The notes below the pieces were generated by a model. That model saw only the letters and a program-made list of their open reading frames with translations, had not been told where the DNA came from and did no database searches. DNA of 64,000 nt from Diadema setosum (taxonomy: Eukaryota; Echinodermata; Echinoidea; Diadematoida; Diadematidae). How positions within the stretch are numbered: the stretch's first letter is position 1; the number at the start of each line of letters is the position of its first letter. Made by a program: the position numbers and the translations under genes. Of the stretch, positions 13,701-63,699 are shown piece by piece. Location: contig NW_027307674.1 in assembly GCF_964275005.1 (NCBI RefSeq), positions 124,001-188,000 on the forward strand, written 5' to 3'.

Positions 13701-13981
13701 AAGAAGGAGAGCATTAATACTGAATGTATACACTCACACACACACACACACACGTACACACACACGCACCATGGAGCTACATAGCCCATGCCAAAACCAA
13801 AACAATCTCCTCCTCTCGCGGGTGGCCCCCCTCCCCCTGTGGCGGTGACTGATGCTTAGATTAGGCCAGGGTCAAGAAACAGGTGTTTTATATCTTTGGT
13901 TTTTAAGTCCTTGATCGCCAAGATATACACTGGCATTGTCTACAGGGGTGTAGCTTCTTCAAAGGAGAGATTTGCCTCATG

Positions 13982-14038
<57 letters not shown>

Positions 14039-20000: not shown

Positions 20001-23000
20001 ACGTCTGACTCAGTCGACGGCGTGCCAACTTCGCATATTCTGCTCAACAACCAAAGCCGCCAAAACCGATCGATAAATCGCTAATCCCGCGGTACAATCA
20101 AAGCGTTTCTCGCGCTTTTGTTCCTCTCACATACGGCTTGCATTCTATGTGGTGAATGACTATCAAGCGGTGTTCCCAACTAGATTTTGCATGTACACTT
20201 TAAGTCTCTGTCACTATTTTATGTGCAAAAGTCATTCCTTTACAGTAATGTAGCATTTGGTAATTCAAAAGAAAAATTGAAAATAGAATTGTTATACATT
20301 GTATATGGAAGCAAAGTTTGGCATTCCTCTTTAACTTTGCTCACTATTATGTCCAGCTTAACAGAAATTTGTAGAAGTTATACAGATTGGAAAAAACAGA
20401 ATTCTTTCTCTAAGCATGACTATCTTCGTGTCTCAGAATAACGTGGCACACAGGGGGTTTCCACCATGGCACATAAAGAGTTAAATCAAATCAAAAATGA
20501 CATGTTCAAGGAATGATTATATTTGATGGTGACCTACAGTACATGTTTTATATGTTTTACCAAAAACGTGACACTTTGCAGCTATATTTTTAAATCGTTC
20601 CGTGTAAAGACGCCAGTGGTAAAAAAAAGAGAAAATTACACAGAAAGAGAAAACTTAGGAAGTAAGAATGTCAGACTTTATAATGTGTGCATAATGATTA
20701 CCTGAATAAAATTAAAACAACCCAAGTCCAATTTTGTCCAAATTCAGTTTGACATGGGAAATTGTAGCCTAGCTTAGCGTATACATGGACTCATCTTTTG
20801 GTTAAACCCTTATTACCCCCCAAAAGTACCTAAAATGAATGAGTGAAATCTTGTTTCAATGTAAGAATGACCCAAGTCCAGGATATGGGTAATTTTTACA
20901 TTTTTTAGCGCCCTCTCTCATTACTTCCTGTCCAGGCCTATTATTGTATACACACAATGAACATAACTTACTGGGACAATGATGAGGAGTCAGGTTGGGA
21001 GAAACAAAGTGGAAGTACAATAGGAACAAAAGGCTTTAGAGCAGTGGGGGAAAGGTACAAAATTTTTCATGAGAAACAAGTTCCTGCCAGTTGAATAACA
21101 TGAACTTATTATAGAATCATGTGGAGTAGTTCATGTCCTCAATGCGCATGTTAGTAATAGGCGTATGTTTGATCTGAATTTAGGAGTAAGTAACTAGAAA
21201 TGTTGCATTCGAGCCATTATAGAAGATTGAGAAACTAGTGAAATGACAGCACTATTTTACCTTACCTTTTACACATGGCCAAAAGAGATTCAGAGACTTA
21301 TTGTCTGGTAATACATGAGTATAAAACTTTATGAAGATACTTTCCTGCACTGCAGAGATACGGGGATAATCGTGACATTTTACAATCTAAAATCAACAAT
21401 GACCTTTGATCCTTTGACCTTGGGTATGTGCGACCATAATTATTTTGATTGGGAGAGCTTTATCCACTAATTCATGCATGTGCAAAGTTTTAATTGGGTA
21501 CCTTTAGCGGTTTGTTCATTACACCGTCCACATATGGCTTTAATAAGAAACAGATGGAAGGCATTTCCCCGCATTTTAACATATTGACACATGCACATTG
21601 TAGTTCCATGTACATACATAGACATACTTAATAAATTAGTTTAGTGATGAGGGACATTATGCCATGGTAAAATCTGATTTAACAATACCACTAATATAGA
21701 AGCTTTTCCTGTGTATGATTTAAAGAACGACCCAAGTCCATATGATTCAAACAACTACCAAAGTCCATCAAACAAAATGGCCACTCCACAATGAATGTAA
21801 ATGTAATTTGTGATAATGATATTATGTATTATTTTGTATTTGCACTGTAGCCTTACCATCATAGTTAAAAGAATATTATTGGGCAAATAAAAAAGATATG
21901 AGGGTTTTTTTTTTTTGAAGTTTACTCGAAATGACAACCCATGGACTTGGGTCATTTTTATATTTAGATACTCAAATATCTTCCAAGCGACCTTTATTAG
22001 ACAAAGTAGCTACCATGTCGTTGGATTCCTTATCCTTTCGAAAATACCAAGATGAACCAGAAACCCTCGAACGGGAGTTTAACATTTTGTCCGATTATGA
22101 ACTTTTCAATATGTGTTTGATTTCATTCTACTACGGTTTTTTTTTTCTTCGAGCCCTTTTTTAGTTGTGAAAAGGATAGGTATCAGATATTCCAGCAAAC
22201 ACTACCCTTGTCACTATAAGGACATTTCCTTTAATACAACATATACAACTCTTATTGACAGTCCCCCTCCCCTTAAAAAAAAAATATATATATAAAAAAT
22301 AAAAAATGTATCACTACTCTTGCATGGGACGGAGATGGTAGACAGGCAGGCAGGCTAAAGGGGTGCACGTCACGAGACCGACACCCACGAGTCATACAGC
22401 CCATGAGTTCGACACTAAGCTAAAAAGGCCCACGAGACCGACACATTAAGAGCCGTGTTGTGTCTGTCGAACTCGTGGGCTGGTTTTTAATACTTTTTAG
22501 TGTCGGTCTCATGGGCTTTATTTGCCTAGTGTCTAACTCGCGGGCTGTAGGACTCGTGAGCTGTATGACTTGTGGACCTGTTTTCAATGTCGAACTCAGG
22601 GGCTGTATGACTCGTGGGTGTCGGTCTAGTGGGATGACCCCGGCTAAAGCTCTCACCATCCCACCAACCTTCCTCCTAATCTATACCTACTTTGTTTATT
22701 TCACATTGTAGATTGACGCCTACTCCCGGATCTTATTGTCGTCGACATTCCTGTATCAACTTTTTTTTATGTCGGATTGTATATATGGATATGGTATATT
22801 CATGTTAATATTCAAGTAAAGTAAATGTGTATCTGAATTATTAAAAGATAAATTAACAATTGGAATTCTAATCTTTGATTTTTTTTTTTTGCTTTTAAAT
22901 ATCTACCTCTTTAATTTTTTTTTTTTCACTGAAATTTTCACATCACGACTTGTCACGATTGCCCTGAGAAACATGTATGCCAAATGCGACATCTGTACTA

Positions 23001-26000
23001 TGGAATACAGCGATCGTATTCTTTTTCGCCCTTAGCACGACGACTATGATAAGTCTTATTGAGCATACAAATCCTTGGTTTAGCGTTCACTTGGGTTTTC
23101 CCTGTTTCCCCGCGCGACCGTTTGTCGCTCGATCGTTTGTCTCGTTGAGACATATCACGTGATATTCCCACGGTACAACATGCTGTATGACACAAAGCGG
23201 AGTCATTCATTGTCTGCTGGACTTTTGTAAATGCATGTAGCATAAATTGTGATCAGGGTTTGATTCAATAAAGTGAATGTGTGAACGGCAGCGCCAAACT
23301 TCTCCAGACTTTTGTTTCAGGAACATGTTTCATCATGCAATAGGTGCCTCATGCAGTAGTTAGCCATGTAATGGTAAACAATCTTGAAACACACATGACA
23401 GCTTAATTTGAACTGAAATTTGTTTGCTTTTTTTCATTTGAAAATGCATGATTGCATAATGATCACCTTCTTCTCTTGTTTTAGGAGCTAGCCTAAGCAA
23501 CCATGTCTATGGATTTTTTTTTCAATTATTCTTATTTTCTGGATATTTTTGCTATTCGAACTAAAGAAGCGCCTTTCAAACACTGTATTTCCTTAAAAGA
23601 ATATCTTATTGATTCAGTTTGCAATTTATAGTCAGCTTTGATAAAATCATATTTCCACATTCCAGTTTAAGTTTGCTTTTTGTTGTTTTTTGTGTGTGTG
23701 TGTGTATGTTTATATTTCTGGCATGCAAAAACTGTTTATTTAAGTATATTTCTAAGTATTTTTTTTTATTTTTTCATTTCCAGAAAAAAAAAAATACTAC
23801 CTATACCCCTTTGACATTTTAAATTTTTCACGAAATTGCGAGAAGCAACAAATCAAAATAACTCAAACTGAATTAAAGACATTCAGTATACTATATATTA
23901 TTTACTGAAGGTATTGTATGATATTCACTTGAATTAATGTTTCGGTGAATGTCACTCTGCATATAAAACCAGGGATCACGTGTTTAACGTCTCATGCAAA
24001 ATCACACAAAATACCTACTTACCTTCTGAACAAAGACTAAAGAAAAGACTCGCACTTATTGAAAGAAAAAGCAGTAGGTTATTATGACCTCTGTCCATCA
24101 TAAACTTCGAGGATATTCAAATGATAAAGTAATGGTCCAAACCCTGCACCTACGTCGATTGAAGTGGATCTACTTGATTACGAAATCTGATAGCAACGAC
24201 AGAATTTAGTCAGCATATCGATGGTTGCACTTACGCACGCAAGATTCTCTCAAGCAAAGTCAACATTTACTCATTGAACGCAGCGTCGTTGAAGAACTTT
24301 AGCCCCGTCACTATTTGCATGAAAATCGTCACTCGACCTTCAGGTCGGCAGGGATTCCCAAGGGTCAACGATTCGCACATTAAGATCATTAAGTTCTTCT
24401 CAAAATGAATATGTTTCGTGTAGCGATTAATAGCAGTAATTGACATTTTAACACTCATATTTTACCTTTTCGCTCACGAGTATTAAAATGGGTTGACAAT
24501 TCCTTTAATTGACAGACGTTCAGAATTGCCATCTTGTCTCTAAAGTTCCGATCTCCTTTTAGAAATAAAGAGATCCCGATGTGTTTGATAATACTATGGC
24601 GTTCATCTTTCGTTTTCACATAAAAAAGAGTTTAAAGGTTAATTGAAAATTGACGGTTGATTGTACAGATGAGTTCAAACAAACAGTCTTTTTCACGCAA
24701 TTTTGTGTAATCGGTGACACATCATATAACACTGAATGCAGGCAGTAAGAAACATTTTCACTGGGTCCACCACCAAACGCCAGCTGTGCCACAGAGACAA
24801 TGACGTCTTTCCTCATTAAATTCTGCATTGACAAATTATAGTTTACCTTTCACATTATTACATCTTTTATCAAAATTCATCGGTGCTATTCTGCAATCGG
24901 GTTCACACATTTTTTTTTCTTATTATTTTGACGATTACACTCTTCTGCGTTCTGTATTCTATACCTGCCCTCTCGCGCTTAACATACTGGGGTAAAAGTT
25001 CACGTGGTATTCCCCACTGCCTTGTAGCTTCTGTTGTTTGTAGCCCTGGTGACGAATGTTATTTGTACATGTGTATGCCACATGGCCACAAAGAATATAG
25101 TGCCACCGGTGCATAACATGAATAGCAGTCGTTCCATGTCTCTGTGTTGAACAATATCTGCACACTCCAAAATGCAAGAAAGCAAGTCCACGCATGGAAG
25201 CGTCCATGGAATAAATATTGCAAAACTTAAGACTACCCTTTGTAGATGAGAATGGTACTTCTGGTTTTTCCAAGTAGTATGTTGCCTACGAAAAGTTTTT
25301 TTTTTTTTTTTTTTAATAATTATTATTCTTTTTTGGTTTTGTATGACCGTTTTTTTTTTTTACCCGCTTGTAAAGTGCCGATCTCTGCACAAAAGTAAAG
25401 CTTCCAATATATTTACTTAGAAAAAGATTTGCTGCCAAATTGAAAGGGGAAAAGCTTAGGGTGCCTAAAATCGAGTAATACAGGAAAATCCGCATTGATG
25501 CTTAGTATGCTTTTTTATTCAAAGACAGTTCAGGCAACATTCCCGATTGCACACCCACAGTGTACTGTATTCAAAAACATCACTTTTTATTGTATGTATA
25601 TGTGTTATTAAATACATTTACACATTACAGATTTGTCCAAAAGTCGTCATAATTATAGAAAGATTATGTTCTACGATTGCTTTCATTTAATTAATGACAA
25701 GAAATATTTTCAAAGACATTGTTTAATTATCGCACATTTTCTTTTATTTCCCTTGATTTGAAACAGCTTTAATCTCAAATATTATTTCAGTTGGATAGAA
25801 ATGGATCCATTGTTGTTGTTTTTTTTTTTACGTTTTTTTTTTATTTTTTTTATTTATAGGACATGTATTGAACACATTATGAGGTAGGCAAAACAAAATA
25901 ACACTCACAAGATCCAAGATGAAAACAATCGTAATCGAAAAGATGGACTACTGGTGCTTTCCCTCATTTTTTAAACTGTGCGACTATGTCGCCTATTTGA

Positions 26001-36613: not shown

Positions 36614-36963
36614 TTACATGACGCTGCACCATTTTTCATCTCTTGGTTTTGGGGGTTCTGGATCTGGATCTGGTTTCTTGTTTCTTGGAGGCTGCTTTTT
36701 GACTGGTTTGGGTTCCTCGATAATAATTTCTTGGTTCTTAAACTCAAGATTGTAGGCATTCTGATCACAAGTCCTCAAAATCGTCCAAAGAAACTGAAGC
36801 AGCTGAATGTCCTTATCGATGTCCTCCTTGTGATTATCCTCCGTGTAATTTGCTAACAAGAGAACTCTGTTTTTGTTGTCGACGATGTGCTGTACACTCT
36901 GGAGCACCGCGTTGGAGTCTGGGTATTCGTCCCCATGGGTTATGACGAGTAGCGGTGAAGTCA
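36614..36963 (-). CDS. Gene B last exon: G4/G5, tail and CaaX
   Basis: 350 nt ending TAA. SPLLVITHGDEYPDS is the G4 strand with T-H-G-D; NRVLLLANYTEDNHKEDIDK gives the G5 region and LLQFLWTILRTCDQNAYNL the last helix. The tail is rich in Lys, Pro and Glu (EEPKPVKKQPPRNKK) and ends WCSVM. The frame begins at acceptor CTACAG, not at an ATG. Confidence 0.9.
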
Positions 36964-37039
36964 CTGTAGACAGATTCGAGAGGAAATGATAAAGGACGAC
37001 TCGCCGGTTAGATATATTTTAAATACACCTTTATGTATA

Positions 37040-37099
<60 letters not shown>

Positions 37100-40000
37100 C
37101 ATATGTAATTATGTGACCGTGCATCGCAAAACGAACATAAAGTCGCAGCGCTTGATTTTGTATGAGGACCTCAAAAGGGTGAAACAGGTCACCAAAGTTA
37201 ATCTTGAGTTTTTCATACTTTCTGAAAGGTCTATTCTTTGTGTATATTATCTGTAAGTTTGGGGCCATAAACCGAACAGGAAAGTGTGTTGTCAATAGTT
37301 TTGTCCTATTTTTGTAGAGTAGTGCGATTAGGTACGTCTTAAGAAGTCCCTTTTCATTTCTTTAAAATTCTTTACACACCCTTCAGTTTCAACTCAAGAG
37401 CTACCACCTTGAAAGTTGGCATTTATTATGGACAAAATGTGTTAACTGAGCATGCTCAATTTTAGCTTAAGCTGATAATCGCTTGTTGTTGCTACTGTGG
37501 TTCACATCTGTCCCATTCATCGCACAGCCAGCACGATTTCCAAAGATTGACATGATTAAAGTGCTTGCATAAAACCTTTACTTCGGTGCCTCTTTTCTCA
37601 GTTCACACCATTCCAGAGTGTGTACTTTCTTTCAAATATTTAGATGGCTTAGAAGAGTCAATTTGAACTGAGTTATACACCATTTTAAAGCCTAGAATCT
37701 GCTCAAATGTATATACACGCTGTATATGTGACCCAATACCAAAGAAATCATACAAAGTGTACAATTTCGTCAGTCCTGCATCACAAGAATGCCTTTTATA
37801 AACTAGAAATCACCGGTATTCATTATATGGTTGGTATTTTCATGAATTAAGCCTCATTAGTTTATCGAGATTTGCATGACTCCTTGACGATATTCAGCAC
37901 CACGGCAATGTCTACACGTCTGTCCTGCGATGATACTATGATTTTGAGGAAATAAATAATTCAAAAAGTACAGTTCATGCGTTGTGGTCAGTAGGTTGAT
38001 GAAAAGAACGGATTATGACAAGAAGAGGGTAGTAACTCTTTAGAATAGGGTAATTTTGATCGGAAAACATAAAACTGTCTTAAAAGCAAATAATATGTCC
38101 TCACTTTTGCGTTCACCGAAAAAGCTGTCTCTCGACGGGACAGGTCAACAAGACATAATCAAAAATTACGCTTTGATATAGTTAGGAGGATGTCCTAAAT
38201 GGTCCCGGGTTCGAATTTGACCGGGTAATGTATGCCTATACCATTGTTGTTGTTGTTGATAATGTTAACATGGCCGTAGATGCTACTCAAGCTTTACACT
38301 TTGGTGCTACTGAAGGGCAACTTGTCAAATCGTTGTAATAATGTAATGTAATGAATTGATTTCGTCGTTTCCATTTGTATCATGGAAAATTATCCTCAAA
38401 ATGAAGCGGACCTACCGTGAATAGTCTTCACCTCTTCAAAGAATTGGTAGATAAATTTGTGAGCTTCCTGCTGGCCCATCTCCCTGCAGTCAGAAATATG
38501 TATACATGTATATGAGAATCAAGAGTAAAAACACTCGTATAAAAACGCACAGGAGCAAAAAAAAAAAAAGTGGAATTCACTTTTTTGGGCTCCTGCGGTG
38601 TTTTTAAATGACTGCTTTTACTCTTGATATCCATTTTTCACACAACGACGCAGACCTTTCATATTTTGATATATGCATGTATCCATGTACATAATATGTA
38701 TGTATATATATAAGTATATATGTAAAATCAATTATACAATGATCTTTCTTCTGACGTAGCATAAAAATTGTGAAATGCCGATACTTTAAGAGGCCTAGAG
38801 GTACGGCTAACTGGCCTTGAAAAGTTCTTCAGTTAGCTAACGTCGCAATGCATGTGAAGTTCCCTCTCTAATCCTTAAATTGTGTGCTTAGCTAATGTGC
38901 AAGACACTTTATCAAGGACGTGAAAAATATAATTTTTTTTTTAAATAAAAAAAATCTACTCATCTGAAATTTTGGTTACCGTCAATTTAAAACTTGAAAA
39001 CATTTTAAAATCCGAAAGCCGTCCACCCTAACTTCTCTAAATGACATAATAAAGGGAACGCTGGACCTGAGTGTTGTACTTGTATTTTATGCACAATCTG
39101 GCAACAGAATTTCGTTGGCAACTTGTGTAACTTTGTTCACTAAAGCAAAATATGAAGGATTTTTTTTTTTTGTCAGACTCATGATTTCACAAAAGCTTCA
39201 GTTAAACTCAATACGATGTGCAAATTACTACGATTTTTTTAGATAAAAAGCATACCAAAACTAGAAATGCTAGGATATATTACAAAAGTCAGTTTTTCAG
39301 GAGGGCATTTGTCTTACCCATGTTATTACATAAACCTGTAGTCTCTTGCAAAGAAGAAAAAAAAATGAGGTATCGATTGGTTTTCTAAAATTTCATACAG
39401 GTTTTTTACTCACGTCTTGTGGTATACTAAGACAGCTGCGTGGCATTCTTGAGACTTGTCTTTCAGTATTTTGTGCTGCGCATCCATGCTTCTGCAACCA
39501 CCTGAAAATACATTGTTAGTATAGACTGCGTTCTGCTTTTGTATGACACACTAACATAAAATATTTCTGTCAAGCATTTCACGTAATAAAACAATTTGCG
39601 ATGCGATGAACTCTTTTTGATCCGTTTGTATTGTGCGTGAGTGTTCACATCTGTTATCTACTCTATCTTTCATTGTATTGAAATTGCTCTTTCCCAGTGA
39701 CTGCCTGAAATTAATTCTTTTATTGTTAAGAACCTGCGGGGAAACGCTCTCAATTCAATTACGACTATGATTCCTCGACTGTACAAGTATAGTAAAGTGT
39801 TGGTACAAAATGTTTGATAGGTGTTTTAACGTTCAGAAACTTTTGGTTTATCGTCATTACCATAATATGGAGAGCGCAATCGCTGCCAATGCTTCACAAA
39901 GAAAGAGGCCTATTAGTAGAATTTCTTTCGACCGTGGTCATGAAAAAGATATTGTTTTGTACGCCGTAAACAAGCCCTGATTTTTTTTTTCTAATCTCTT

Positions 40001-43000
40001 TCTGAACAGACAACTTGACCACTCTTCTCTTTTATTGCTTTTCATCTTCCGAATAATGTTCTTCTTATTCTGTTATAGAGAATATTAATGAAGTTCAACT
40101 TACGGATTTCCTCTTTAATCCCTTTTAGTTCACCTACGTCGAAGCTCTGCATCCCTCGGTTGTCCTGCACCGAGATGAATTCTGTCAACGGATGGTGGGT
40201 ACGCTGTTTGGTCTGCCCTCCTCCGCTCTCGACAGACCCTTCAACTGCTACGTTTTCGTAAGTTCCTGTCAAGAAAGGAGCATGTTGAAACGAAAGCATG
40301 GTTGGTTGATGGTATGTAAGGAATAACGGATCTCTTTACACCGCACACACACACACACACACACACGCACATACACAGACGTAGGCAATCAAAAATTTGA
40401 GAGAATGTGCGGTCAGTTATTGACATTTTAAGTTTCAAGATTCGCAAGTATGAAACATGAAAGGTAGGGTTACACTTTCGCCATTTATGTTTTATAGCTT
40501 GCATAGTGTGGAATATGCTAAAGACGTCCCCCCCCCCCCCCATAACAAACTTGTATCATTTTTCCGTATTAGGATTACAATTAGGAGATAGAAGCTCGCT
40601 TTACTTTGTCTATGTATACCACCTCTATGGCCATTTCCTCCATAATTACTTACAGTTTCAGGTGTTAAAATTAAAAGTTGAGTAAAAAAAGAGTAATGAG
40701 GAGGATTTCTTTCAAGATTCTCAATAAAGTCCTTTGATATTATGATTCTTGCAACCAGTCAGAATAAATGCGATTGATGCATGAAATTAGGTTTGCTTTC
40801 AATCTTACCAAAACACAGTCAGAAATAAACATACATCACACACTTTTCGGGGTCCACGTAGTTTTAAAACAACATTTTCTCCATTTCTTGCTCTTATCTC
40901 AAGAATTAACATGACATTAAAGACACATACTTTATTCCAGCAGTAATTCCTCAGAAGTTTTGGTGTCATGGAAAATTTCTCAACTTTTCAATTCAATTTC
41001 AATTCAGTTCATTTATTTTCATTCTTCTTTTTTTTTTATTTCAACAAAAACATAACACAAGATACATCAGGTATTACATCAAAAACAAAAAACATTTGCC
41101 TTTGCAATGAATAAATGATATCGATAAACATTACTCTCTCTCGCACATCTTTTTTTTTCCCCTCTCTCTCTCTCTCTTTCAAAACAATGTATCTGCATCA
41201 TGGGAATTAATATTTTTACGTCTGATCCAGATGAACACAATTTAATATAGTGCGTGTGTTTAAATCTGATCTTTGCCCACTATATTTGTACAGCTGACAG
41301 TTTACCCCCTTACATTTGAACTTCTGACGGTTTTGGGGCTTTGTTTAGTTTTGTTTGGGGGGGGGGGGAGATTCTGGCATTTTGCCATCGACATTATGAA
41401 AGCCGAAGCCTTGCACATTCGGCAAGTTTTACCCTTGTTATTTTGCCCACAGCATTCTCACTGCTATTTTTTTTTTCCACTTCTAACACTTGTTACTTAT
41501 TTGGTACCCCGGCATATTCTATTTTTGACTTTATTCATCCATGCTTTTTTGTTTGTGACATTGTAATCGTTCACACCGAAAGTTTCACAATAAAACCTTT
41601 ACCCCTGACTTTTGCACAAGTGGCATTTTTACTTATAAAACTTTATAAACACAGATATTTCTATCTTGCACAAAATTTTCCAGCTTTACTTTAGCTTTTT
41701 AAAACGTAAATTGTTGTGATTGAGATGATTTTGTCTGGAGAATTTATTTTTCTGAATATCAATCTACCTTTGATATTGATATCCATGACATATTTTTCCA
41801 TCAAAACTTTACCCCTGACGTCCTTCTGTTTTACTGTAATATTTTAACGATTAGTTTTAAATCGGATTTTTCATCCTGTTACCTCTGTCTCTGACATTTT
41901 ACCCATGACACTACTAATTTGTAATCCTAACAATATTACACTTTAGACTTCAATTTATTTCTATGTGTGCCGTCAAGTACTTCACTCAAAGAACAATATA
42001 CACTCTTAAAAAAAAGATTCTATCAAAGTTTTTTTAATTGTCTTGTCTTCTTGCTTTTAAAGTTATGCTTTAAAGTCAAGTGAAATCGTTCTGCCTGAAT
42101 TTCATAACAAAGTAAAATTGTGTTTGCATGAAACTTCAATCATAGAATGCTACGAATACTTCCCCTTATTCACGAGGGCAAAGAAAATAGAGTTAAGGGA
42201 AAGCGGATTTTCTTGCAGCCATCTGCCCGAATGCAAATACTTACCCTTGAAGGCAAAGAAAATGGAGTTAATGAAAGCGGATTTTCCTGCGCTCATCTGC
42301 CCGAATAGATTGATATTGACTCGCTCCAGATGGTCAAGCTTACACCCCGCAGCTTTTCCAGGTCGGTAGTCACTTGTCATTGTTCGAAGCTTTTCTCGCT
42401 CTTCGACTTTGTGTCGTGACATGGAGAAAAAAAAAACAACAACAACAACTGTGAGAAACTGGGACTGGTATTTTCTCGGAATATGCTGAAGTTATTTTGA
42501 AAAGCCATATTTATTCTAAGAGATCAAAATGTGTGATAACATTTGTATTCAAATTTATTCATTTCATGTCACCATGACAAAGGAAAAACGATTATATCAC
42601 TGTAATAAAACAACCACTACAATCGGGTCTAGGACAATTACCCCATTGGCAATTACACCAAACCTTCCCCTGACCATTACCCTAATCCTAATCCTGGACC
42701 TAATCCTAACCCTAACCCAAACTCTAACCCTAAACCTAAACCCAATCCTAATCTTTACTCTACCTTATCACTAACTAGAATTTAGCCGGGGATAACAGCC
42801 CTCGAGGGTATTTGTTCTGATACTCTACAATCATATCAAAATTCTTAATCCAGTTGAAAAAAAAAGATATCCTTCGACACTGCATACCAAAATCATGTTT
42901 GCTGCATTGGCAGTGATGGTGGTATGTTGTATTTGGATCTACATTTCGCAGCAGCAGATACTGTGTTCAAACAAATACCTGCCACTAACATCAGTTATAT

Positions 43001-46000
43001 CTTTTTACAAGCAGTTTCACCTTTTATGTTAACATGTGTCCTGAAAGCACCACGTGCAGAGTAGCGCTTATTTACCTTGCCGAGACTACCTGAATAACAC
43101 TATCCCAACAACACAAATTATACAAAACATTAATTTTCAATATCATTTGATAAATGTAATCCCTTACTCCTTGGATCTATCAGAGGTTTCTTCCAGCCTG
43201 GAATACGCGATAAACCTGCAAGTGTATAAACAAGTGAAGTGCTTTTAGATAAGAGTGCACAAATAATAATTGTCAAATGTTTATGGAATATTATAGTATA
43301 GCCTACAACATGTTTAACACGTTAAGGCAAAGTAAAAACTTTATACTTAATAAATTCTAAGCTTTCTAATTTAATTTTCTTTTGTCCTGACATTGAAATT
43401 TCGTGGTCCTAAAAATTATAATCAACAAAGTATAAAGCCGAACTAAACTCTAGTAATGATGTTCAACCATCTGAATATGAAACTCAAATAATTTCCTTGG
43501 GTCATGGGACCAGATTCATCTGAAGCCAAATACCTCCGAAGACCATCCTTTACACTGTCTTTATTCCATAGTACAAGAAACAGGAGTTCTCATAACATTC
43601 AAATGAAGAGTTTGTTTGCAAAAACCGATAAGTCCATATTTGCCAAATGGAGATATTTGCGATTAAAGGTCAAGAAAAATAAAGAGAATAATAAGAAAAA
43701 TGTTGCTTCTTTTGACCATAACTTCAAAAATATACCTTTATATGTAGTGACCAATATATCATTTAAAAGGTATTGTTTTGTACTTTATGACAGAGATCGT
43801 ACTTCAAAATCTTCAAAAATGGACTTATCGGTTTTTGCAAACAAACACTTCAAATATATAATTTCTGCATTGTGAGTTTACTGTAAATATGGAAACCAAC
43901 ATCTTAATTCAGATGGAAGAATTTCTTCCTTCAACTTATAATGCACCCAAAAGTGAGAAAAAAAAAACCAAGATGTCAAACTGCGACCCTTGGTGATTGT
44001 AAAGCCATTTATGAAATGGATTTTAAAAAGATAAACTCTGAGACCAGACGAGATAACATTACCGTCAGGAATGAGCTCTGGCTTGTAAATCTGTAAAAGT
44101 TTTCCAGTAGCGAAAAACAGCACTGTTATGAGAACCACGAAGAGCAACGTCAAGCCGATTCCGAGTGCGATTTTGTTTGGACCTGGGACGTCTTTGTTCC
44201 ATTAAATAACACACAAAAAGAAGCAACCAGAAGAGCAGGTTCATTTGATGAAATTAAAAAAAAAAAAAAAAGTGTATTTTTCACAAGCTAGTTCTAACCG
44301 AGAGTCATGATGTTATACTTTTGTTTGTTCAGCAGATTAGCTCAACATGAAACTACAAACGAAAAAGCATTTCGTATTTAGATGACGAAAGAGAAGCGAG
44401 CTTCAGCCCGATTGAGGAACAATTCCTTTTTATATGGATTGTCGCTATCCATGGGTCCCTCCTATGATCACACTTTATTGCTTAATTGCAATATGTCAGC
44501 ACACCGCCCGAGAGTACATTTTAGTTGGCATTGATTTACCACATTAACTAGAAGATGAAAACACAATCACAAATTATTTCTTTTTTGGCGCACTCATAAT
44601 TTTGAAACGTGACGCAATGAAGAATGTTTCTATAACATGTAACAGAGAAATCCAGAGGATAAACTTTTTTTTCTTCACCGCTTACCATGAAAAGATAAAA
44701 CGGTAATAACTTTCACTGAGGTTCCCTCAACTGAAAGACCGGACGCCGTACACTTGAAATCTTGGTCCGTCTCGTCATTGGCTGTAACAGTAATTGTCTC
44801 GAGTCTTTCGAAAGTTCCGTCTGACAAAGTGTATTGGTCGGACCACAGCGGGGGCAGTACTCGACCGGACTTGCTCCACACGAGTGAAACATTTGGCCGA
44901 AACCCCGTGACTCTGCAGTCAAGATGAAAAGTTGGGGTTTCTCTCGAGGTTTGGATGGTACAAGAATTCGAACTGCGAACCTGTCCGACACACTGCTCGA
45001 TGATATGCCCAGTCGCCTTGGCTGCCAGAAGTAACAGTGACAAGTATGGTGACAAAAGAAAAACTAAAGACTAAAGAGCGACTATGATGACAGCAATTAA
45101 GATAATACGTACGTCAAGAGAATAATTAACCAAAATCATAATTGTATAGATTGGATAGCACATCGATTGATATTGAAGTCACTGAAGTGATTCACAGCAT
45201 GCATCCAGTTCAATTCAATTCAGTTCAATTTATATCATTTTTCTTCTTCTGCCAAACATTACATAATATATGACATATGATCTTATTACTACAAAATATT
45301 TGACTTTACAATGCAAATTTTACAGGCTATCGTGTATCGAAAGCTTAAAGACATATTACGAAATGTCAATGAAGAACAGCAGCAGCAGCATTTTGTGTCT
45401 CTCTTTTGAGAACATTTTTTTTCCGAAAATAAAACCCTCAAACATATTTTCTTAGATTGAGCCACATCCCAACAGCCATCTCTTGTATCTATGTATGTTT
45501 GCAGTCTTCTTTTGAGGGTAGATCAAGAAACTTTCACTCACATGACAAGAATATTTTATCGTTCTGCTGTTTCTGTTTTTGAGCAATCGTGACAAGTTAT
45601 ATAAATCAAAATCATCACCCCTGTTTTCCATTCTTTCATTTTAAGAGTATGTGAACCCTGCTTTGGTGAACTGTTAACTTACCATTTATGGTGAGACTGG
45701 TGGAATTCAAGAAATCCTGGAAAGACTCTAGAACCACTTGGCAATGGTAGTTACCCTCATCCGCCACCTCCAGATCTACGATGTTGAGACTGAAACTTTT
45801 GTCGATACCGAATCGTTTCTCCTTGCTCGAGAACTCCCCGTCGAAGTAAGTAGCTTTGTTCGTCAACTTGCCTAGTTTTGAGCTGTTTTCTTTCGACCAG
45901 TACACAGCGAAGGGCTCCTCGTGGAAGATGCACGGCAGTCGGATTTCTTCCCCTTTCCATCCTTCAGCGATAGGGTCGGTACCTACCATCGAGGCTTGAC

Positions 46001-48568
46001 GAAGGTGTGTGACGAACGTAAGACATTAAGAAAAATAGTTGGTTAAGTTTGCAATATTTCATACATTATTTCAGCATCTTGGCAAGAATCAGCTGCTGTA
46101 TATTAAGCAAATTGACTACGAACCTATAGTGTTTCAAATCCTTCCATGTGGCAGAACGAAACGCTTCGCAAAAAGCGTTTCCTTTGCACATAAAGTTTCA
46201 TTTGGCTATAATTTTGCCTTTTTTCGGGGGGGGGGGGGGGCACCACTGCATGCGTGCTGATAATTCATCTGCTTCCAAATGAAAGCCATTGCTATCCATT
46301 AAACATGTATTATCTGATTTTATCTTACGGTGTGAATTGTTGCTACCTCGTTGAACTAAGGGTTACAATCAATGAACTCTGTTTGTTTGTTTGTTTTTCT
46401 GTTTTTTACGATTAACACTATGATCACCTCAACTAGTGTTTTACATGAAACACTGAAGAAAGCGTATTCACCTTCCTGGTGGATATTCATATAGTATATT
46501 ATGATTAAGAAGTCTGTAACAATGATAGAGAAATCTTACATTAATTCATCTGGCCTATAGTTGTTCCGGGCACCTGTAGTTATAGTACTGCGTATCTTGC
46601 AGTGAGGGTGATAGTATTAATCTTTGCTGGCTCTTGAATTATTTCCATCAAGATGGAAAAAAGAAAGTAAAACATAGGTCCGAAATAATATCAACCCGAC
46701 TGTGCAGTTCAATGTTCAAATGTACGAGAGATATTCATTTATATAACACTAGACAAACTGGTAACTATATTTACCTATCTTTGTGTTACATCGCAAAGAT
46801 CTGTTAGATATCAAGTTGGAGTCCAGCCGTTACAGGTAGAAAGACCAATGGCCTCTGCGGGCTCCTCCATTTTCTCTCTTAGAATTTCATTTTTTTTCTC
46901 TCCATTGTGTGTGTGTGTGTTTTTTTTTTTTATTGTAAATGACCGTATACTGTTACCGAATGTAATGTTATTTATCTCCACTTTGTTCTTTGTTACATGT
47001 ATGTTAATGAGAATTTTGGAAATAAATGAAATGAAATGAAATGAAATGAATCACCGGCACTGCTGTAAAATGCTAGCACTATTACTGTTATCACCAGTAC
47101 AGCGAGTCATAATATAACCGGATAGATATAAAATCGACGAATTTCGTTCTATTGGCAGCCGCTTCCCAAAGTCCCAATAGGACGACAAAAAGCTTTCCCT
47201 CATTACTATCAATTCTCGTATAATCATCATATCCACTCTTTTATCTTTCCCATATGAATTTCCTATATGCACTTGTGCATCTTTTTCCACTTATTCCAAT
47301 TTACAACCTGCGTCGTCTTTTACACCGTGTACCCTCAGCGACAAAATTAGGTCCAATACTACTATTGAACAAGATTATATGTATATCACCAATGTGCGAG
47401 CAAAGATCATGTTCCTTGAAACATGGACCTTGTCGTTTAAGTACACATATATCTGCTTATCTTTCTTTCAATGGGTCGATATACCACCATGATGATATCA
47501 GGTACAAAGTACATATTTCCTGTTGTAACAATAAATCCCTTCTCCTCATGCAGTCACAGTATTCACTCCACGTCACGCACATGCCAATTGAGCAGTGGAA
47601 AATTCCCCTAAACGTTTGCAAAGTCATCTTCTATGTAAATTTCTATCATAATTCATGATGACTGAAAGTACGAAAATTTCAAGACGTGGAGAAGGAGCTG
47701 CAGGAGAGTACCATTCGCACGCATCATTGTCTCTTGGCCTACCTAGCCGGCAAAAGATGTGTCTAAAATGCCGTTATAGTACACTAACAACTTCACAATT
47801 TTAGGTCAGACTAATTGCGGTTCTCTGTGCAATATTTTGAGTAATTTCTGCATATCTAAAATCTCACCAACGCATCGTGCCTACGGCTAAATCTGCAGGG
47901 GAAAAAAAGCCTCTGCAGTAGGCTTACCGCATACTATACAGGACTCTTACACTTGTAATCATCACTTGTACAATGGTAATCATATATCTCAGTCAGCATT
48001 TTCAACAACATTCCTGGGTAAAGACAATCATATCTCCTCTCCTACTAATGATCAATAGTGTTGTCTCTATGAGTAGCTTAATTCCAAAATCACATTCCAA
48101 CTTTACTACTCGTTCAAATTCTAGATTGTAAATCAAGAAAATTGATCATCATGAAGAGCAACATATTAAGCCCATATATTGCATTCAAAAGTGAAATAAT
48201 TCATTTATTGGTCTCTTTCATTACGTTTTAGTGAACTTAGATTATCACCATTACATTTTTTTCTGAATATCTTTAAAGTGTCCTAGATTATGACCTAGGC
48301 AGAAAATATTGGTAAAGATGAAGAATACACAGCACATTTACATGCTGCTAAGAGGTGCAGCACAATTATGATGCAATATAATTGAATTGAACTGAATAGA
48401 TGTGAATTGAATAGGCTTCAATGAATATGTAGGTTGGGACTTGAATCAAATTTCTTTATGCAAATACAGTTTCACAGAAATATGTGTAAGCTTACCTTTT
48501 GCAACAGGACAACAAAACACACAAGCGGTCACAATAAAAAGAAAAATGAGGTCGTTGCTTCTATCCAT
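36614..48568 (-). CDS. Gene B: complete Ig(V)-Ig(C1)-TM-IFI44-like GTPase receptor with CaaX box
   Basis: Ten exons join to 1,719 nt (572 residues plus TAA), with every junction GT-AG and in phase. Order by residue: signal 1-24, V-set 25-128, C1-set 129-240, TM about 245-266, juxtamembrane 281-296, GTPase about 320-520, tail to 572. GTPase motifs: GQMSAGKS (332-339), DNRG (385-388), a HAAVLVYHKT strand, THGD (465-468, G4) and VLLLANY, followed by LLQFLWTILRTCDQ. The strand-THxD-NY-helix series follows IFI44 (its THVD and NYE blocks). The last four residues are CSVM, a CaaX box with Met last, which favours farnesyl transfer. I infer a type I receptor whose own cytosolic GTPase is a signalling or trafficking module. 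Ligand and pathway are unknown. Neighbours A and C are paralogues on the same strand. No disabling change is seen in the joined frame. Confidence 0.82.
37045..37100. repeat. (TA)n microsatellite in a gene B intron
   Basis: More than 20 TA units upstream of the GTGACC MITE. Confidence 0.9.
37112..37787. mobile_element. MITE, GTGACC-TIR family, copy 2
   Basis: Left end TGTGACCGTGCATCGCAAAA, with ACGAACA following; right end TCCTGCATCACAAG. The interior matches 880-1,220. Lies in the last intron of gene B. Confidence 0.6.
38180..38352 (+). mobile_element. tRNA-derived SINE fragment
   Basis: GGTCCCGGGTTCGAATTTG holds a B box; then a (GTT)n stretch, a body and a GTAATGTAATG tail. The A-box half is not clear. 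In a gene B intron between 36,964 and 38,415. Confidence 0.45.
38416..38483 (-). CDS. Gene B GTPase small helical exon
   Basis: 68 nt, acceptor GACTGCAG, donor G|GTAGGT, phase 2 in and 1 out. It encodes EMGQQEAHKFIYQFFEEVKT and IH, an amphipathic helix before the G4 strand, as in IFI44. The gene C counterpart 61,481-61,548 is the same length. Confidence 0.82.
39414..39501 (-). CDS. Gene B GTPase middle exon
   Basis: 88 nt, acceptor TATTTTCAG, donor AC|GTGAGT, phase 1 in and 2 out. It encodes GCRSMDAQHKILKDK and SQECHAAVLVYHKT. The last part is the hydrophobic strand that in IFI44 reads HCVAFVFDAS. The gene C exon 63,612-63,699 is the same length and about 80 percent identical in protein. Confidence 0.85.
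40104..40265 (-). CDS. Gene B GTPase G2/G3 exon
   Basis: 162 nt, acceptor TTTCTTGACAG, donor C|GTAAGT. GGGQTKQRTHH offers the G2 Thr and VQDNRGMQSFD the G3 D-x-x-G. ELKGIKEEI forms the following helix. Aligns along its length with gene A 1,566-1,733. Confidence 0.85.
40340..40375. repeat. (CA)n microsatellite
   Basis: About 14 CA units in the intron preceding the gene B G2/G3 exon. A C run follows at 40,528-40,540. Confidence 0.9.
40985..41130 (-). mobile_element. LINE 3' end fragment
   Basis: TTCAATTTCAATTCAG followed by T-rich sequence and ATAACACAAGATACATCA-like text reads on the minus strand as a LINE 3' UTR with a (TTGAA)n-like tail. Confidence 0.4.
41241..41910. repeat. Scattered TTTACCCCTGAC-like repeats
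   Basis: Variants of TTTACCCCTGAC recur at about 41,300, 41,430, 41,600, 41,810 and 41,900 with T-rich spacers. Too diverged for a fixed unit; no gene. Confidence 0.35.
42160..42240 (-). pseudogene. Decayed tandem duplicate of the gene B P-loop exon end
   Basis: Directly after the donor of exon 42,245-42,406 the minus strand repeats the exon end: CGGGCAGATGGCTGCAAGAA, then AATCCGCTTTCCCTTAACTC, then TATTTTCTTTGCC. The Walker A Gly-Lys-Ser is changed, the frame shifts near the Ile-Asn codons, and the copied donor reads GGGGAAGTATT where the real one reads GGGTAAGTATT. It is therefore unlikely to be spliced. Confidence 0.75.
42245..42406 (-). CDS. Gene B GTPase P-loop (G1) exon
   Basis: 162 nt. 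After a charged linker (EEREKLRTMTSDYRPG) comes VNINLFGQMSAGKSAFINSI, strand plus Walker A G-Q-M-S-A-G-K-S. Donor G|GTAAGT. The acceptor is set at CACAAAG because phase and alignment with gene A demand it; the polypyrimidine tract lies about 25 bases upstream. A decayed tandem copy of the exon end lies just downstream in the intron. Confidence 0.85.
42655..42770. repeat. Degenerate interstitial telomere-like repeat
   Basis: Runs of CCTAAC, CCTAAA and CCTAAT words (for example CCTAACCCTAACCC) resemble the animal telomere unit TTAGGG read on the other strand, much diverged. In the gene B intron upstream of the P-loop exon. Confidence 0.6.
43168..43215 (-). CDS. Gene B juxtamembrane exon
   Basis: 48-nt phase 1-1 exon, acceptor ACACTTGCAG and donor A|GTAAGG. 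It encodes GLSRIPGWKKPLIDPR. The I-P-G-W-K-K-P core aligns with the 63-nt gene A exon (N-P-C-W-W-R-K-P). Found by looking for a counterpart of the gene A exon between the TM and P-loop exons. Confidence 0.6.
43603..43853. mobile_element. ~250-bp MITE with TTTGTTTGCAAAAACCGATA ends
   Basis: GTTTGTTTGCAAAAACCGAT then AAGTCCAT at the left is inverted at the right (ATGGACTTATCGGTTTTTGC, AAACAAAC). TIRs are about 33 bases with few changes. The open frame through it is not a gene. In the intron between the gene B TM and juxtamembrane exons. Confidence 0.75.
44063..44182 (-). CDS. Gene B transmembrane exon
   Basis: 120 nt, acceptor CGTCCCAG, donor G|GTAATG, phase 1-1. It reads GPNK, then IALGIGLTLLFVVLITVLFF, then ATGKLLQIYKPELIPD. 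A single strongly hydrophobic helix with Lys on the inner side; type I orientation follows from the signal peptide. Confidence 0.85.
44686..45021 (-). CDS. Gene B C1-set immunoglobulin exon
   Basis: 336 nt, acceptor TTCTGGCAG, donor G|GTAAGC, phase 1-1. The core LDCRVTGFRPNVSLVW is a textbook C1-set B-C strand block, and DFKCTASGLSVEGTS holds the second Cys. An extra pair, QCV...NSC, precedes the domain as in gene A. LSDGTFERLETITV is nearly the same in both copies (LSDDTFERFETITV). Confidence 0.88.
45205..45260 (-). mobile_element. LINE 3' tail fragment
   Basis: TTCAATTCAATTCAGTTCAA followed by TTTATATCATTTTTC is the minus-strand end of a LINE, between the V and C1 exons of gene B. Confidence 0.4.
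45683..45994 (-). CDS. Gene B V-set immunoglobulin exon
   Basis: 312 nt, phase 1-1, donor G|GTAAGT. First Cys in IRLPCIFHE, Trp in AVYWSKEN, and DEGNYHCQV as the D-x-G-x-Y-x-C signature. GW-KGE near the start and LTNKA in the middle are shared with gene A (KGEEIRLPC against KGEDIRLPC). Sequons NSS and NST are kept. Extracellular. Confidence 0.9.
46850..47052 (+). mobile_element. LINE 3' UTR with (AAATG)n tail
   Basis: Ends TTTTGGAAATAAATGAAATG and four more AAATG units. Upstream GGCCTCTGCGGGCTCC and a (TG)n, T-rich stretch look like 3' UTR. In the first intron of gene B. Confidence 0.5.
48496..48568 (-). CDS. Gene B signal-peptide exon
   Basis: ATG at 48,568 encodes MDRSNDLIFLFIVTACVFCC, then PVAK, and the exon ends G|GTAAGC (phase 1). 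N-terminal MDR and exon size resemble the gene A signal exon. Upstream, the minus strand has a polypyrimidine tract and TTTTTCAG (complement of about 48,608-48,620), so part of the 5' UTR may be on a separate exon. Confidence 0.75.
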
Positions 48569-55929: not shown

Positions 55930-56003
55930 TAAATCATATAAAGTATACACACGCACCTTCCTATTTAACTTCCTTTCTTAAGTTTCTCAGTCTTTCAACG
56001 TCC

Positions 56004-60360: not shown

Positions 60361-60701
60361 TTACATTACATTGCACCAGCTGTCATCTTTTGATTTAGAT
60401 TCTTCTACTCGTGCGGGGCGAGGCGGAGAGGGGGAACGTTTTGGCTTGGGCTTCTCGATAATAATCTCCTCGTTCTTAATAGCTAGATTGTAGGCATTCT
60501 GATCGCAAGTCTTCAGAGTCGTCCACAGAAACTGCAGCAGCTCGATGTCCTTCTCGACGTCTTCCTCGTGACTATCCTCTCTATAATTTGCCAACAAAAG
60601 GATTCTTTTTTCGTCGCCGACGAAGTGTTTGACACTCTGGACTACATTCCTGGGGTTTTGGTATTCATCCCTGTGAGTTACGACGAGCAGTGGTGAAGAC
60701 G
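60361..60701 (-). CDS. Gene C last exon with CNVM CaaX box
   Basis: 341 nt ending in a stop. SSPLLVVTHRDEYQNP is the G4 strand; LLQFLWTTLKTCDQNAYNL matches gene B almost fully. Three residues out of four of the CaaX box (C, V, M) are kept although the tail before it has diverged and changed length, which suggests selection on the terminus. Confidence 0.88.
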
Positions 60702-62601
60702 CTGCGGGGAAATTCAAGAGACATCTTGAGTGGAGATTGCGTAATGTCCCGAAATTGACGCAAGCAAATTTTTGATATCGCGCAAAGTGATCCAAAGTAA
60801 AAGCAAGTACGATCTTTAATCAATAGCCTCAAAACCTATTTCTTTCCATCTTTGTTCAACTTCGGGACAGTGTGACGGATGCATATTAAAAGGGAAGCTT
60901 CAAAAGATAAGTCGAGATGGAGGGTCTACTCGTAAAGCACACACCAACTTTAATATCATACACACACAACAACAACCACTTGCCAACTTTTCTTGGCAAA
61001 GAGGGTTTTTTTATTTAATAACTATTGTAAATGAAAAAATGAATGAATAAATAGGAACGTCACATACACACACACACACACACACACACATACAGCATGA
61101 ATAAATCGTAAATTATATAGAATACATGTGTGCCTTTATGCATATAATACATTTATATGAACGTGTATTTTGTGTGTGTGTTTGCGTTGACTAATGTGAG
61201 ATAAAGTGTGGGATGAAAAGAGATGAAAAAGTCTCTGAGTCATAGTTGCACAATGATTTGAGAGTTTGGCACTCCATCCATCTGATCATTATCTTTGTAT
61301 GTTCCAAATTTGTCGCCATATATATGACTGAAGCGCCTAATTATTCAAATTTCACGAGTATACGATCTTTATTCATCGAAGTAGCTGTGTCTCGTCACCA
61401 CAGCTCAACAAGATACAGATTATTTGACTTCAATGTTTACATAATTGTACCTAAATATAGAAAGAACAAAATAAACGTACCATGAATTTTCTTCACCTCT
61501 TGGAAGAAGTGATGGATGAATTTGTTAGCTTCAAGCTCGCCAATCTCCCTGCAAATGAAAGCAAGATTTTTTTTTTTATTTATGACACAATGTACGAATA
61601 ACTAACTCTTCATGACAGAGAAATAAATCAAAATCATTTTTATCGAAATCTTATAACAACCAAACTATGTTCGCTTAATCATGTCAATAAAGTCACCATT
61701 TCTATATAGCCATTAAGTATATGTATATATATATATATGTGTGTGTGTATGTGTGTGTGTTTGTGTGTGTGTTTGTTTAATTAGAGAAAAATAATCTGTC
61801 AAACACAAGTCCTCCTCAGAGGTTATTCCACCATATATACCATTGTGTCTAGTCTCTCCTTCTTTAATGTCAGCTCTCCTGCATTCTTGCAGGTATGATA
61901 AAAAGAATGAATAATTTCAAGCTTTTTTTTTTAAACGAATACAAAGAAGGAGCATTTTTTTATGTGTGGACTAAGGGAGTTCCAGAATCTTGGACCTGTA
62001 TAAATAAATGTCTTGTTTGGTAACTATGATATGTCAGGTTACGAGGAAACATAGAATCAAATATAAGCGGAAGACAGATGTTATTATAACTATACATAAA
62101 TTGTCCTAAAGGAAATAAGAACAAGTCTTTAATTGTCAAAATCTTATTTTCAAAAAAACAAAGAAGCCGTATGAATGCCTTCTTTTTTAACAATAAAACC
62201 CTATCTAATAATGTTTGATGCGTGTTTCCCCATGCTAAATATCCGTAATTTAAATAAGGTAATATCAAAGACGAATACAGTATAAATAATGAGTGTTGGG
62301 GAAGAAACAATTTAAACCTATTATTGACGCCTATATTGCGTGAAATAATTTTACAAAAATAATCTATATGAAATTTCCAAGAAAGTTTATCATCTACTGT
62401 AATTCCAAGAAATTTTGTACATGAAACACTTTCTAAAACAGTATCATCAAAATAAATATCCATATTCAAATTATCTAAAGTGTTGCTAAAAACATATACT
62501 TGTTTTTATTAATATTCAGGGACAGCTTATTAGCTTGTATCCAATCACGTAAATTTTGTAACTCCGAATTTACTGTGTGCACAAGGATATTTGGATCTTC
62601 A

Positions 62602-62635
<34 letters not shown>

Positions 62636-63699
62636 ATTTGAGTCATCGGCGAAAAGTATGAATGATAACACTTGGGAGAAAGCACAAAAATCATTAATAT
62701 AAACAATAAACAACAACGGCCCCAATATACTGCCTTATGGCACGCCATCAATTAATTCTCTCATATCAGAGTTATAATTGTTTATTGAAACATATTGTTT
62801 ACGATCAGTTTGATAACTCCTGAACCACTCCATGGCCTTCCCACGTATACCATAGTGGGACAACTTATAAAGCAATATATTATGATTAATAGTGTCGAAG
62901 GCCTTGGAGAAGTCCAGGAAGAGACCGATCAAATAAGAGTGATTATCTAAAGCATGTGCTACTTTATCAATGAAATAAAAAAATGCAACTGTTAATTTAC
63001 GTTTTTGCAATTATTACAAATATGTTCTGCTCATACATTGCATATATAATTTGTATAGAATATGAGGCAAAATAACACGGATGTAAAAGTCATCACGACT
63101 TTTTTTTTAATGAAATGTGCGTTTTCTGCGATTTGAATCTTATGAATATCGCATGCTCAATGTTATGTTTAACCTCGACAGCTGTTCACTGTAACTGTAA
63201 GTATGTCGTTGAAATATTGGGGGATTTCCGTAAGTACGTACTATCTGAAAACACACTTAACCTATCGCGAGTTGAAAGTTTACAGCAATTTATGTCATCC
63301 TGTCCTACCTATGGCAGCAACTAATAGATAAGATTAGTTCAGACTTCGGTTTCACAAAAGGAAGCAGCCTTAGGATTCTTTTTTTATTGATCCGGTATAG
63401 AGTGCATCACGAATTTACATTGTACTTTCAAAATTCGTATGCTTGGTATAACAATAGTGCATAAGCCTATAATATAGGTTGTATTATAGACTTATACCAA
63501 ATAACAAATAGAGTGAATTCTAACATACTCCATTTTTGTCTAATCATTTCGAATACATGTAAATGCATGTAGGATCTCCGTCTTTTACTTTCTAGGGGAT
63601 GTTTAACTCACGTTTTGTGGTATACTAAGATGGCGGCGTGGCATTCTTTAGACTTGTCTTTCACTATCTTATGTTCCGTGTCCATGCTTCTGCAACCAT
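60361..63699 (-). CDS. Gene C: 3' part of a third Ig-receptor GTPase paralogue
   Basis: Three exons of a third copy, entering from the right edge: 63,612-63,699, 61,481-61,548 and 60,361-60,701. They equal gene B in phase and, for the first two, in length (88 and 68 nt). The protein reads from GCRSMDTEHKIVKDK through ECHAAILVYHKT, then EIGELEANKFIHHFFQEVKK, then SPLLVVTHRDE (G4 as T-H-R-D), ILLLANYREDSH, and ends in SWCNVM, again a CaaX box. The tail is richer in Arg, Ser and Pro (PKPKRSPSPPRPARVEESKS). Ectodomain, TM and P-loop exons should lie beyond base 64,000. A LINE is inserted in the intron between the first two exons. No break is seen in these exons. Confidence 0.82.
61060..61092. repeat. 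(CA)n microsatellite in a gene C intron
   Basis: About 15 CA units; a (TG)n tract lies at 61,738-61,772. Confidence 0.9.
61481..61548 (-). CDS. Gene C GTPase small helical exon
   Basis: 68 nt, acceptor ATTTGCAG, donor G|GTACGT. It encodes EIGELEANKFIHHFFQEVKK followed by IH. Same size and phases as gene B 38,416-38,483. Confidence 0.82.
61915..63012 (-). mobile_element. LINE (CR1/Jockey group) in a gene C intron
   Basis: Minus strand, 5'-truncated. The RT palm LIGLFLDFSKAFDTINHNIL and HYGIRGKAMEWFRSY lie at 62,735-63,010; the catalytic SFILFADDSNVF near 62,640-62,690; a long A run on the plus strand (62,607-62,634) interrupts the frame. The C-terminal part (FLGITVDDKLSWKFHIDYF, LILPYLNYGYLAWGNTHQ) is at 61,960-62,469. 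Inserted between gene C exons at 61,548 and 63,612, in sense. Confidence 0.88.
63612..63699 (-). CDS. Gene C GTPase middle exon
   Basis: 88 nt, acceptor after a run of T and CAG, donor AC|GTGAGT. It encodes GCRSMDTEHKIVKDKSKE and CHAAILVYHKT. Same size and phases as 39,414-39,501. Confidence 0.85.

Follow-up and report, generated by a model that had tools for sequence, protein, structure and literature searches.

Within a 64,000-nt stretch of the Diadema setosum contig NW_027307674.1 (the window, whose coordinates are used throughout), gene B is best explained as a type I immunoglobulin (Ig) receptor with a V-C1 ectodomain and an IFI44-like GTPase as its signalling part. The predicted receptor would be held to the membrane at both ends and would belong to a head-to-tail family, of which two further members, genes A and C, lie in the same window. 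All three genes are encoded on the minus strand. We assign this reading a probability of roughly 0.6.

Reconstruction of gene B from the raw minus strand gave ten exons between 48,568 and 36,614, separated by nine GT-AG introns with the phases 1,1,1,1,1,1,1,2,1. The joined reading frame of 1,719 bases encodes 572 amino acids and a stop codon, and contains 0 internal stops. The ten-exon gene with matching phases and a 572-residue product put forward in the original prediction was thereby reproduced in coordinates, exon number and length. In order, the protein consists of a signal peptide, a V-set domain, a C1-set domain, a transmembrane helix, a 16-residue linker, a GTPase-like part spread over five exons (the G part), a proline-rich tail and the terminal residues CSVM.

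Genes A, B and C follow one another head to tail. Gene C runs off the window on the low-coordinate side and gene A on the high-coordinate side. The signal, V, C1, transmembrane, P-loop and G3 exons of gene C correspond to gene B exons 1-4, 6 and 7, and all six were found in the order and phases of gene B. Gene A retains the last three GTPase exons (gene B exons 8-10), again in matching order and phases (3/3), and ends in CNVM. The end of gene C exon 7 was placed at 1566, at a GTAAGT donor (first estimate 1567). Nine of the ten gene B exons have a counterpart in A or C, and exon 5 is without a sure one. Its single candidate in gene C (5087-5025, with a longer form too) scored 27 versus a best score of 16 in a control stretch and is unconvincing. 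In tblastn searches the exon matches stood out as protein, signal and transmembrane exons excepted; for the counterparts of these two, position, phase and hydropathy speak more strongly than the score. A blastn comparison of B with A found the last three exons. Apart from these, blastn matched simple repeats, a repeat of 300 bases and, in the ninth introns of A and B, a shared piece of 42 bases (E 0.001). Since the exons of the paralogues C and A recur with the order and phases seen in gene B, the predicted exon anatomy very likely goes beyond chance.

The extracellular part of gene B has the features of a type I member of the Ig superfamily, namely a signal peptide, a V-set domain, a C1-set domain and one transmembrane helix, the C1-set being marginal in B and clear in C. 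Over 19 residues, hydropathy peaked at 2.33 in the signal peptide and at 2.85 in the transmembrane helix (IALGIGLTLLFVVLITVLF, mean hydropathy 2.85), and both peaks are present in B and C. The Pfam V-set model matched above its cut-off, with an E-value of 2.1e-11 for the full gene B protein and 1.9e-13 for the gene C product. For the C1-set, the gene C product reached 30.7 bits (4e-07) and the gene B C1 exon alone 21.2 bits, barely passing the cut-off of 21; the model was absent from the Pfam matches of the full gene B protein. The butyrophilin-type Ig-C model of Pfam gave a weak match under its cut-off. A profile built from the two ectodomains retrieved 96 PDB sequences at E <= 0.001. The best 60 of these 96 include an entry named 'Antigen receptor', pIgR, Fab chains and UrIg2 V-C1-C2-C3; the first three head the ranking, and several Fab chains align over both V and C1 (e.g. 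4fab_H, 17-201). A search with one pattern found no tyrosine motif resembling immunoreceptor tyrosine-based inhibitory or activation motifs (ITIM/ITAM).

In the G part, the G1 motif GxxxxGK[ST] reads GQMSAGKS in B and GEMAAGKS in C, and G3 (DxxG) is DNRG in both. The P-loop G domain is the only module recognised in the predicted cytoplasmic part and, among the sequences compared, is closest to IFI44 and IFI44L. The human IFI44 and IFI44L sequences used were not drawn from a database, which applies to all comparisons with them. Against IFI44L, the G part gave a BLAST E-value of 3e-07 (one pair) and a Smith-Waterman score of 85, above 1000 of 1000 shuffles (maximum 60). With IFI44L, IFI44 and GIMAP4, Smith-Waterman scores reached 85, 80 and 61, in each case higher than any of 500 shuffles; the corresponding phmmer scores were 17.1, 14.7 and 5.5 bits. 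A profile of the A, B and C G parts aligned with a profile of IFI44 and IFI44L over 217 columns (E 7e-08, probability 94.6). With GIMAP4 the probability was 28.9 (E 6e-04), this being a comparison of a profile with one sequence and the former of a profile with a profile.

The IFI44 blocks named in the original prediction were recovered in the profile-profile alignment with the human sequences. HAAVLVY stands opposite HCVAYVL, LLVITHGDE opposite the ALLTKVDD block, VLLLANY opposite ILMVGNY, and LLQFLWTILRTCD opposite ILSALRQMLRAAD. Of an IFI44-type G domain, the stretch that precedes the P-loop is present, and so is the NY...LR block towards the C-terminus, the pairwise signal being weak outside the P-loop block. 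Most of that signal sits in this block, including the preceding DYRP stretch. Gene A exons 8-10 alone stood at 3.2, 0.0 and -0.5 standard deviations relative to shuffles for IFI44L, IFI44 and GIMAP4. The putative IFI44 assignment rests mainly on the P-loop block, and the colinear blocks behind it are visible chiefly in the profile alignment.

With phmmer against the PDB, the G part of B had three chance matches and no G protein, and the profile of the A, B and C G parts had two matches, a Di-Ras chimera (E 0.47) and IRGb10 (E 0.52). Addition of the human sequences to this profile led to 33 matches at E <= 1, including mt-EngA, septin-9, IRG and GIMAP chains; many are confined to the surroundings of the P-loop, and non-GTPase chance matches are among them. 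The human IFI44L sequence itself had 13 weak matches (best E 0.13), with no solved IFI44 structure among them. The model of the TLDc domain (PF07534), which is N-terminal in the IFI44 family, had no match listed at E <= 1 in B or the window-truncated gene C, and human IFI44L reached 18.0 bits with a cut-off of 24.5. No relatives of the G profile were confirmed among 42 pattern matches in viral contigs and 28 in prokaryote contigs (0/42 and 0/28), and these negatives are weak because the single pattern per scan was taken from an exon 8 stretch where the gene C fragment's end is badly positioned in the MAFFT alignment.

Both gene copies whose C-terminus lies inside the window carry a CaaX-like end, CSVM in B and CNVM in A, while the preceding tail or linker has diverged between them. 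The second position (S in B, N in A) is not aliphatic. Farnesylated CaaX boxes tolerate a non-aliphatic residue there. The rebuilt model, Pfam and hydropathy together bear out the proposed order of signal peptide, V-set, C1-set, transmembrane helix, GTPase with G1, G3 and a G4-like motif, and CaaX-like end. Placement of the cytosolic part outside the P-loop GTPases, named beforehand as speaking against the fusion, was not seen in the profile comparisons run. Domain order, IFI44 affinity and block correspondence are supported at the level of sequence.

The distribution of differences between the copies was examined by codon position and by nonsynonymous (dN) and synonymous (dS) divergence according to NG86. 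B and C were compared for the V, C1 and transmembrane exons and exons 6+7, and A and B for exons 8-10; the comparison did not cover exons 1 and 5. Differences at codon positions 1/2/3 were 24/24/41 over 103 codons (V), 50/36/79 over 111 codons (C1), 46/34/71 over 106 codons (exons 6+7) and 40/23/57 over 161 codons (exons 8-10). The values of dN and dS were 0.27 and 0.87 for V, 0.22 and 0.82 for exons 8-10, and 1.05 and 1.37 for the 39 codons of the transmembrane exon. dS was saturated for C1 (dN 0.52) and exons 6+7 (dN 0.47). In every comparison where dS could be estimated, dN was smaller than dS.

Several observations weigh against the receptor-GTPase reading and are given here together with the rival explanations on which they bear. 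At the position of G4, B has THGD and A has THRD, which differ from the canonical [NT]KxD. The G part might be a pseudo-GTPase scaffold, nucleotide-free or non-hydrolysing, in a receptor that signals via other cytoplasmic partners or only adheres. The available part of PMC6712396, stating that IFI44 has a GTP-binding domain without homology to GTPases, points in the same direction. G1 and G3 are intact in B and C, however, and the differences in exons 6-10 fall preferentially at third codon positions (71 in 106 codons and 57 in 161 codons). THxD also occurs at G4 in the human IFI44 sequence used (THVD), and the IFI44L sequence used has TKVD. The scaffold is the most serious of the rivals, although we consider it unlikely.

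What looks like one gene might also be two neighbours, with exons 1-4 making up an Ig receptor and exons 5/6-10 a soluble IFI44-like GTPase of its own. Splice sites were scored with the base frequencies of a textbook matrix, and acceptor percentiles refer to all AG sites on the strand. The gene B acceptors ahead of the transmembrane exon 4 and the P-loop exon 6 were near the median (47.5 and 52.3 percentile), and both flank the region joining the membrane helix to the GTPase. Acceptors ahead of exons 2 and 8 reached 77.7 and 76.6, and the other five at least 94. Exon 4 has a second possible in-frame acceptor, located 9 bases upstream, whose use would lengthen the protein by three residues with no other change. 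An AATAAA lies in gene B intron 4 at 43,565, and in-frame ATGs lie 6 codons upstream of gene B exon 6 and 9 and 21 codons upstream of gene C exon 6. False domain fusions arising from gene prediction are documented in lancelets, according to the available part of PMC4967905. The following points weigh on the receptor-GTPase reading itself. The transmembrane exon shows little sign of constraint (12 of 39 amino acids identical between B and C), with codon-position differences of 23/19/26 and little third-position excess. In blastn, the V exon was the only exon matched between B and C, and the C1, transmembrane and GTPase exons matched only as protein. The gene C exon 3 donor CAG|GTCTCG is weak (79.4 percentile). 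The junction between receptor and GTPase was seen a second time in gene C only, which ends at the window edge before exon 8, and no second complete copy was seen. The fusion is read from exon anatomy and this partial second copy, and a single mRNA is presumed.

Against a division into two genes, the transmembrane exon ends in a stop-free phase 1 donor, and exons 5, 6 and 7 are all entered in phase 1. Gene C repeats the exon order, with strong acceptors ahead of its transmembrane and P-loop exons (97.3 and 99.7 percentile). Protein similarity between B and C starts within exon 6, and the upstream stretches with the ATGs are unlike each other. The minus strand of the window contains 75 copies of AATAAA, of which 16 fall between 36,000 and 48,600, so that a single intronic copy means little. 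We regard two separate genes as improbable.

The remaining rival concerns the kind of G domain, which might be of the GIMAP (AIG1) type, making the receptor an Ig-GIMAP fusion. No Pfam G-domain model reached its cut-off on the G part; AIG1 was the best match (2.5e-05, model positions 2-197 of 212) with 24.1 bits, and 22.2 bits on the full gene B protein, versus a cut-off of 27. When the P-loop block was removed, GIMAP4 stood 2.8 standard deviations above shuffles, about as far as IFI44L (2.9, with 7 of 500 shuffles as high) and farther than IFI44 (0.7, 111 of 500). An Ig-GIMAP fusion is nevertheless quite improbable, given the phmmer scores and profile probabilities above (the latter from differing types of comparison), the DYRP stretch and the NY...KDI..L...LR..D block after G4, both of which follow IFI44L, and the PDB matches of the B G part at E <= 10, which include no GIMAP chain though PDB contains such chains.

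Returning to the Ig receptor with an IFI44-like GTPase, the V-set and C1-set domains would lie outside the cell, one helix would cross the membrane and the G domain would lie inside. Predicted prenylation of the CaaX end would pin the far end of the G domain to the inner membrane, so that it would be held at both ends. A ligand, either microbial or another surface protein, might bind the V domain and cluster the receptor. With clustering, GTP-loaded G domains would become locally concentrated and might then pair through their nucleotide sites. GIMAP and septin domains pair in this manner. The paired, membrane-bound G domains could recruit effectors or reshape the membrane, and hydrolysis would reset the system. 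We infer that gene B yields a single mRNA and that its product binds a ligand and GTP, clusters, signals and has an immune role; on this account the product may act as a signalling molecule. Whether it represents a class of germline-multiplied, antigen-receptor-like V-C1 receptors with their own cytoplasmic IFI44-like GTPase, combining ligand recognition and an interferon-effector-type switch in one chain, we consider an even bet.

With IFI44 and IFI44L the G part shares, in colinear order over the 217 aligned columns, the stretch before the P-loop, the P-loop block, TxxD (THxD in IFI44), the NY block and the final helix. Proteins of the IFI44 family are soluble and without signal peptide or transmembrane helix, whereas B and C have both hydropathy peaks; moreover, gene B has Ig domains and a CaaX end and no TLDc match, and human IFI44L has a weak one. 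How IFI44 uses GTP and contacts membranes is poorly understood. GIMAPs resemble gene B in their septin/GIMAP-like P-loop G domain, but they are less similar to the A, B and C G parts and have no Ig ectodomain. GIMAP GTPases associate with membranes in an immune setting, some being anchored by C-terminal hydrophobic segments. Guanylate-binding proteins with a CaaX box are immune GTPases with a prenylated C-terminus; we know of none with Ig domains or a transmembrane helix, and the GBP family was not among the Pfam matches listed at E <= 1. Receptors of the antigen-receptor and butyrophilin type share the succession of V-set, C1-set and transmembrane helix, but have a short tail, ITIM/ITAM or B30.2 in place of the G domain of gene B.

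IFI44 is described, in the available part of PMC6712396, as a cytoplasmic protein with a GTP-binding domain that was present in cytoplasm and nucleus when expressed. An NLRC4-like immune receptor of a sea cucumber, an echinoderm, unites an Ig domain with an NTPase, which is a NACHT domain and not a G domain, as far as the available part of PMC8699970 goes. According to the accessible portion of PMC8195603, immune proteins known from invertebrates contain Ig repeats or AIG-GTPase domains alongside further immune modules, so that gene B would fit a wider pattern of domain shuffling. An Ig-transmembrane-IFI44 or Ig-transmembrane-GTPase receptor was not found in titles and abstract openings of open-access papers among the matches listed, which is not proof of absence, and the available parts of PMC9334734, PMC5094078 and PMC11999971 contained nothing on an Ig-transmembrane-IFI44 architecture. 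If the reading is true, gene B would point to use of the IFI44 G domain in a membrane receptor, apart from the interferon-induced soluble form. A receptor with an IFI44-type effector domain would offer a direct route to probe the action of this domain via receptor clustering. Receptors with a built-in GTPase would be added to the kinase, phosphatase and TIR types already known. In addition, a V-C1 ectodomain in antigen-receptor order would be present in a possible invertebrate.

Table 1. Exons of gene B and extent of the paralogues C and A, in window coordinates.
Feature	Coordinates	Strand	Description
Gene B exon 1	48496..48568	-	Start codon and predicted signal peptide MDRSNDLIFLFIVTACVFCCPVAK (hydropathy); GT donor, phase 1; gene C counterpart 24101-24023
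Gene B exon 2	45683..45994	-	V-set Ig domain; Pfam V-set 2.1e-11; 61/103 amino acids identical to gene C exon 2
Gene B exon 3	44686..45021	-	C1-set Ig domain; additional conserved cysteine pair; 51/111 aligned amino acids identical to gene C exon 3
Gene B exon 4	44063..44182	-	Predicted transmembrane helix; hydropathy 2.85; gene C counterpart 5951-5826, 12/39 amino acids identical
Gene B exon 5	43168..43215	-	Juxtamembrane linker, 16 residues; gene C counterpart uncertain
Gene B exon 6	42245..42406	-	DYRP stretch and P-loop GQMSAGKS (G1); gene C counterpart 2301-2125
Gene B exon 7	40104..40265	-	G3 motif DNRG; gene C counterpart 1733-1566, also with DNRG
Gene B exon 8	39414..39501	-	G-domain strand HAAVLVYHKT; gene A counterpart 63699-63612
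Gene B exon 9	38416..38483	-	G-domain helix; gene A counterpart 61548-61481
Gene B exon 10	36614..36963	-	G4-like THGD, C-terminal part, proline-rich linker, CSVM CaaX end, stop; gene A counterpart 60701-60361
Gene C	1566..24101	-	Window-truncated paralogue; exons 24101-24023, 15281-14970, 7304-6963, 5951-5826, 2301-2125, 1733-1566
Gene A	60361..63699	-	Window-truncated paralogue; last three exons 63699-63612, 61548-61481, 60701-60361

The V exons of B (45683-45994) and C (14970-15281) are far closer to each other at third codon positions than the C1 or GTPase exons. Third-position differences numbered 41 in 103 codons for V, compared with 79 in 111 for C1 (Fisher p 4.8e-06) and 71 in 106 for exons 6+7 (p 9.9e-05), and the similarity of the V exons ends at the exon borders. 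The V exon seems to have a later common ancestor than its neighbours. This lower third-position divergence suggests that V exons have been exchanged or converted between the tandem copies, with selection on synonymous sites as the alternative.

Two further features of the receptor part involve cysteines. The extra pair in the C1 domain is kept in both copies (C139/C149 in B, 44686-45021; C141/C152 in C, 6963-7304). The juxtamembrane stretch of gene C (5826-5951) is cysteine-rich and contains GKCLQKCC, absent from gene B, which we take to be a possible palmitoylation site.

Possible traces of mobile elements lie in and between the genes. Frames that by eye resemble endonuclease and reverse transcriptase of the long interspersed nuclear element (LINE) type lie at 8667-11287, in the gene C intron that separates V from C1. 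Further fragments, by eye reverse-transcriptase-like, lie at 61963-62920, in the gene A intron between exons 8 and 9, and at 55472-55977, between genes A and B. The two copies of the 300-base repeat, with about 68% identity, are located at 37412-37703 in gene B intron 9 and at 931-1217 downstream of gene C exon 7, and probably represent an interspersed element. Directly upstream of the gene C C1 exon, positions 7476-7881 hold an array of units of about 20 and 41 bases (GTTTATCATTGATAAACAGA), which by eye are partly palindromic.
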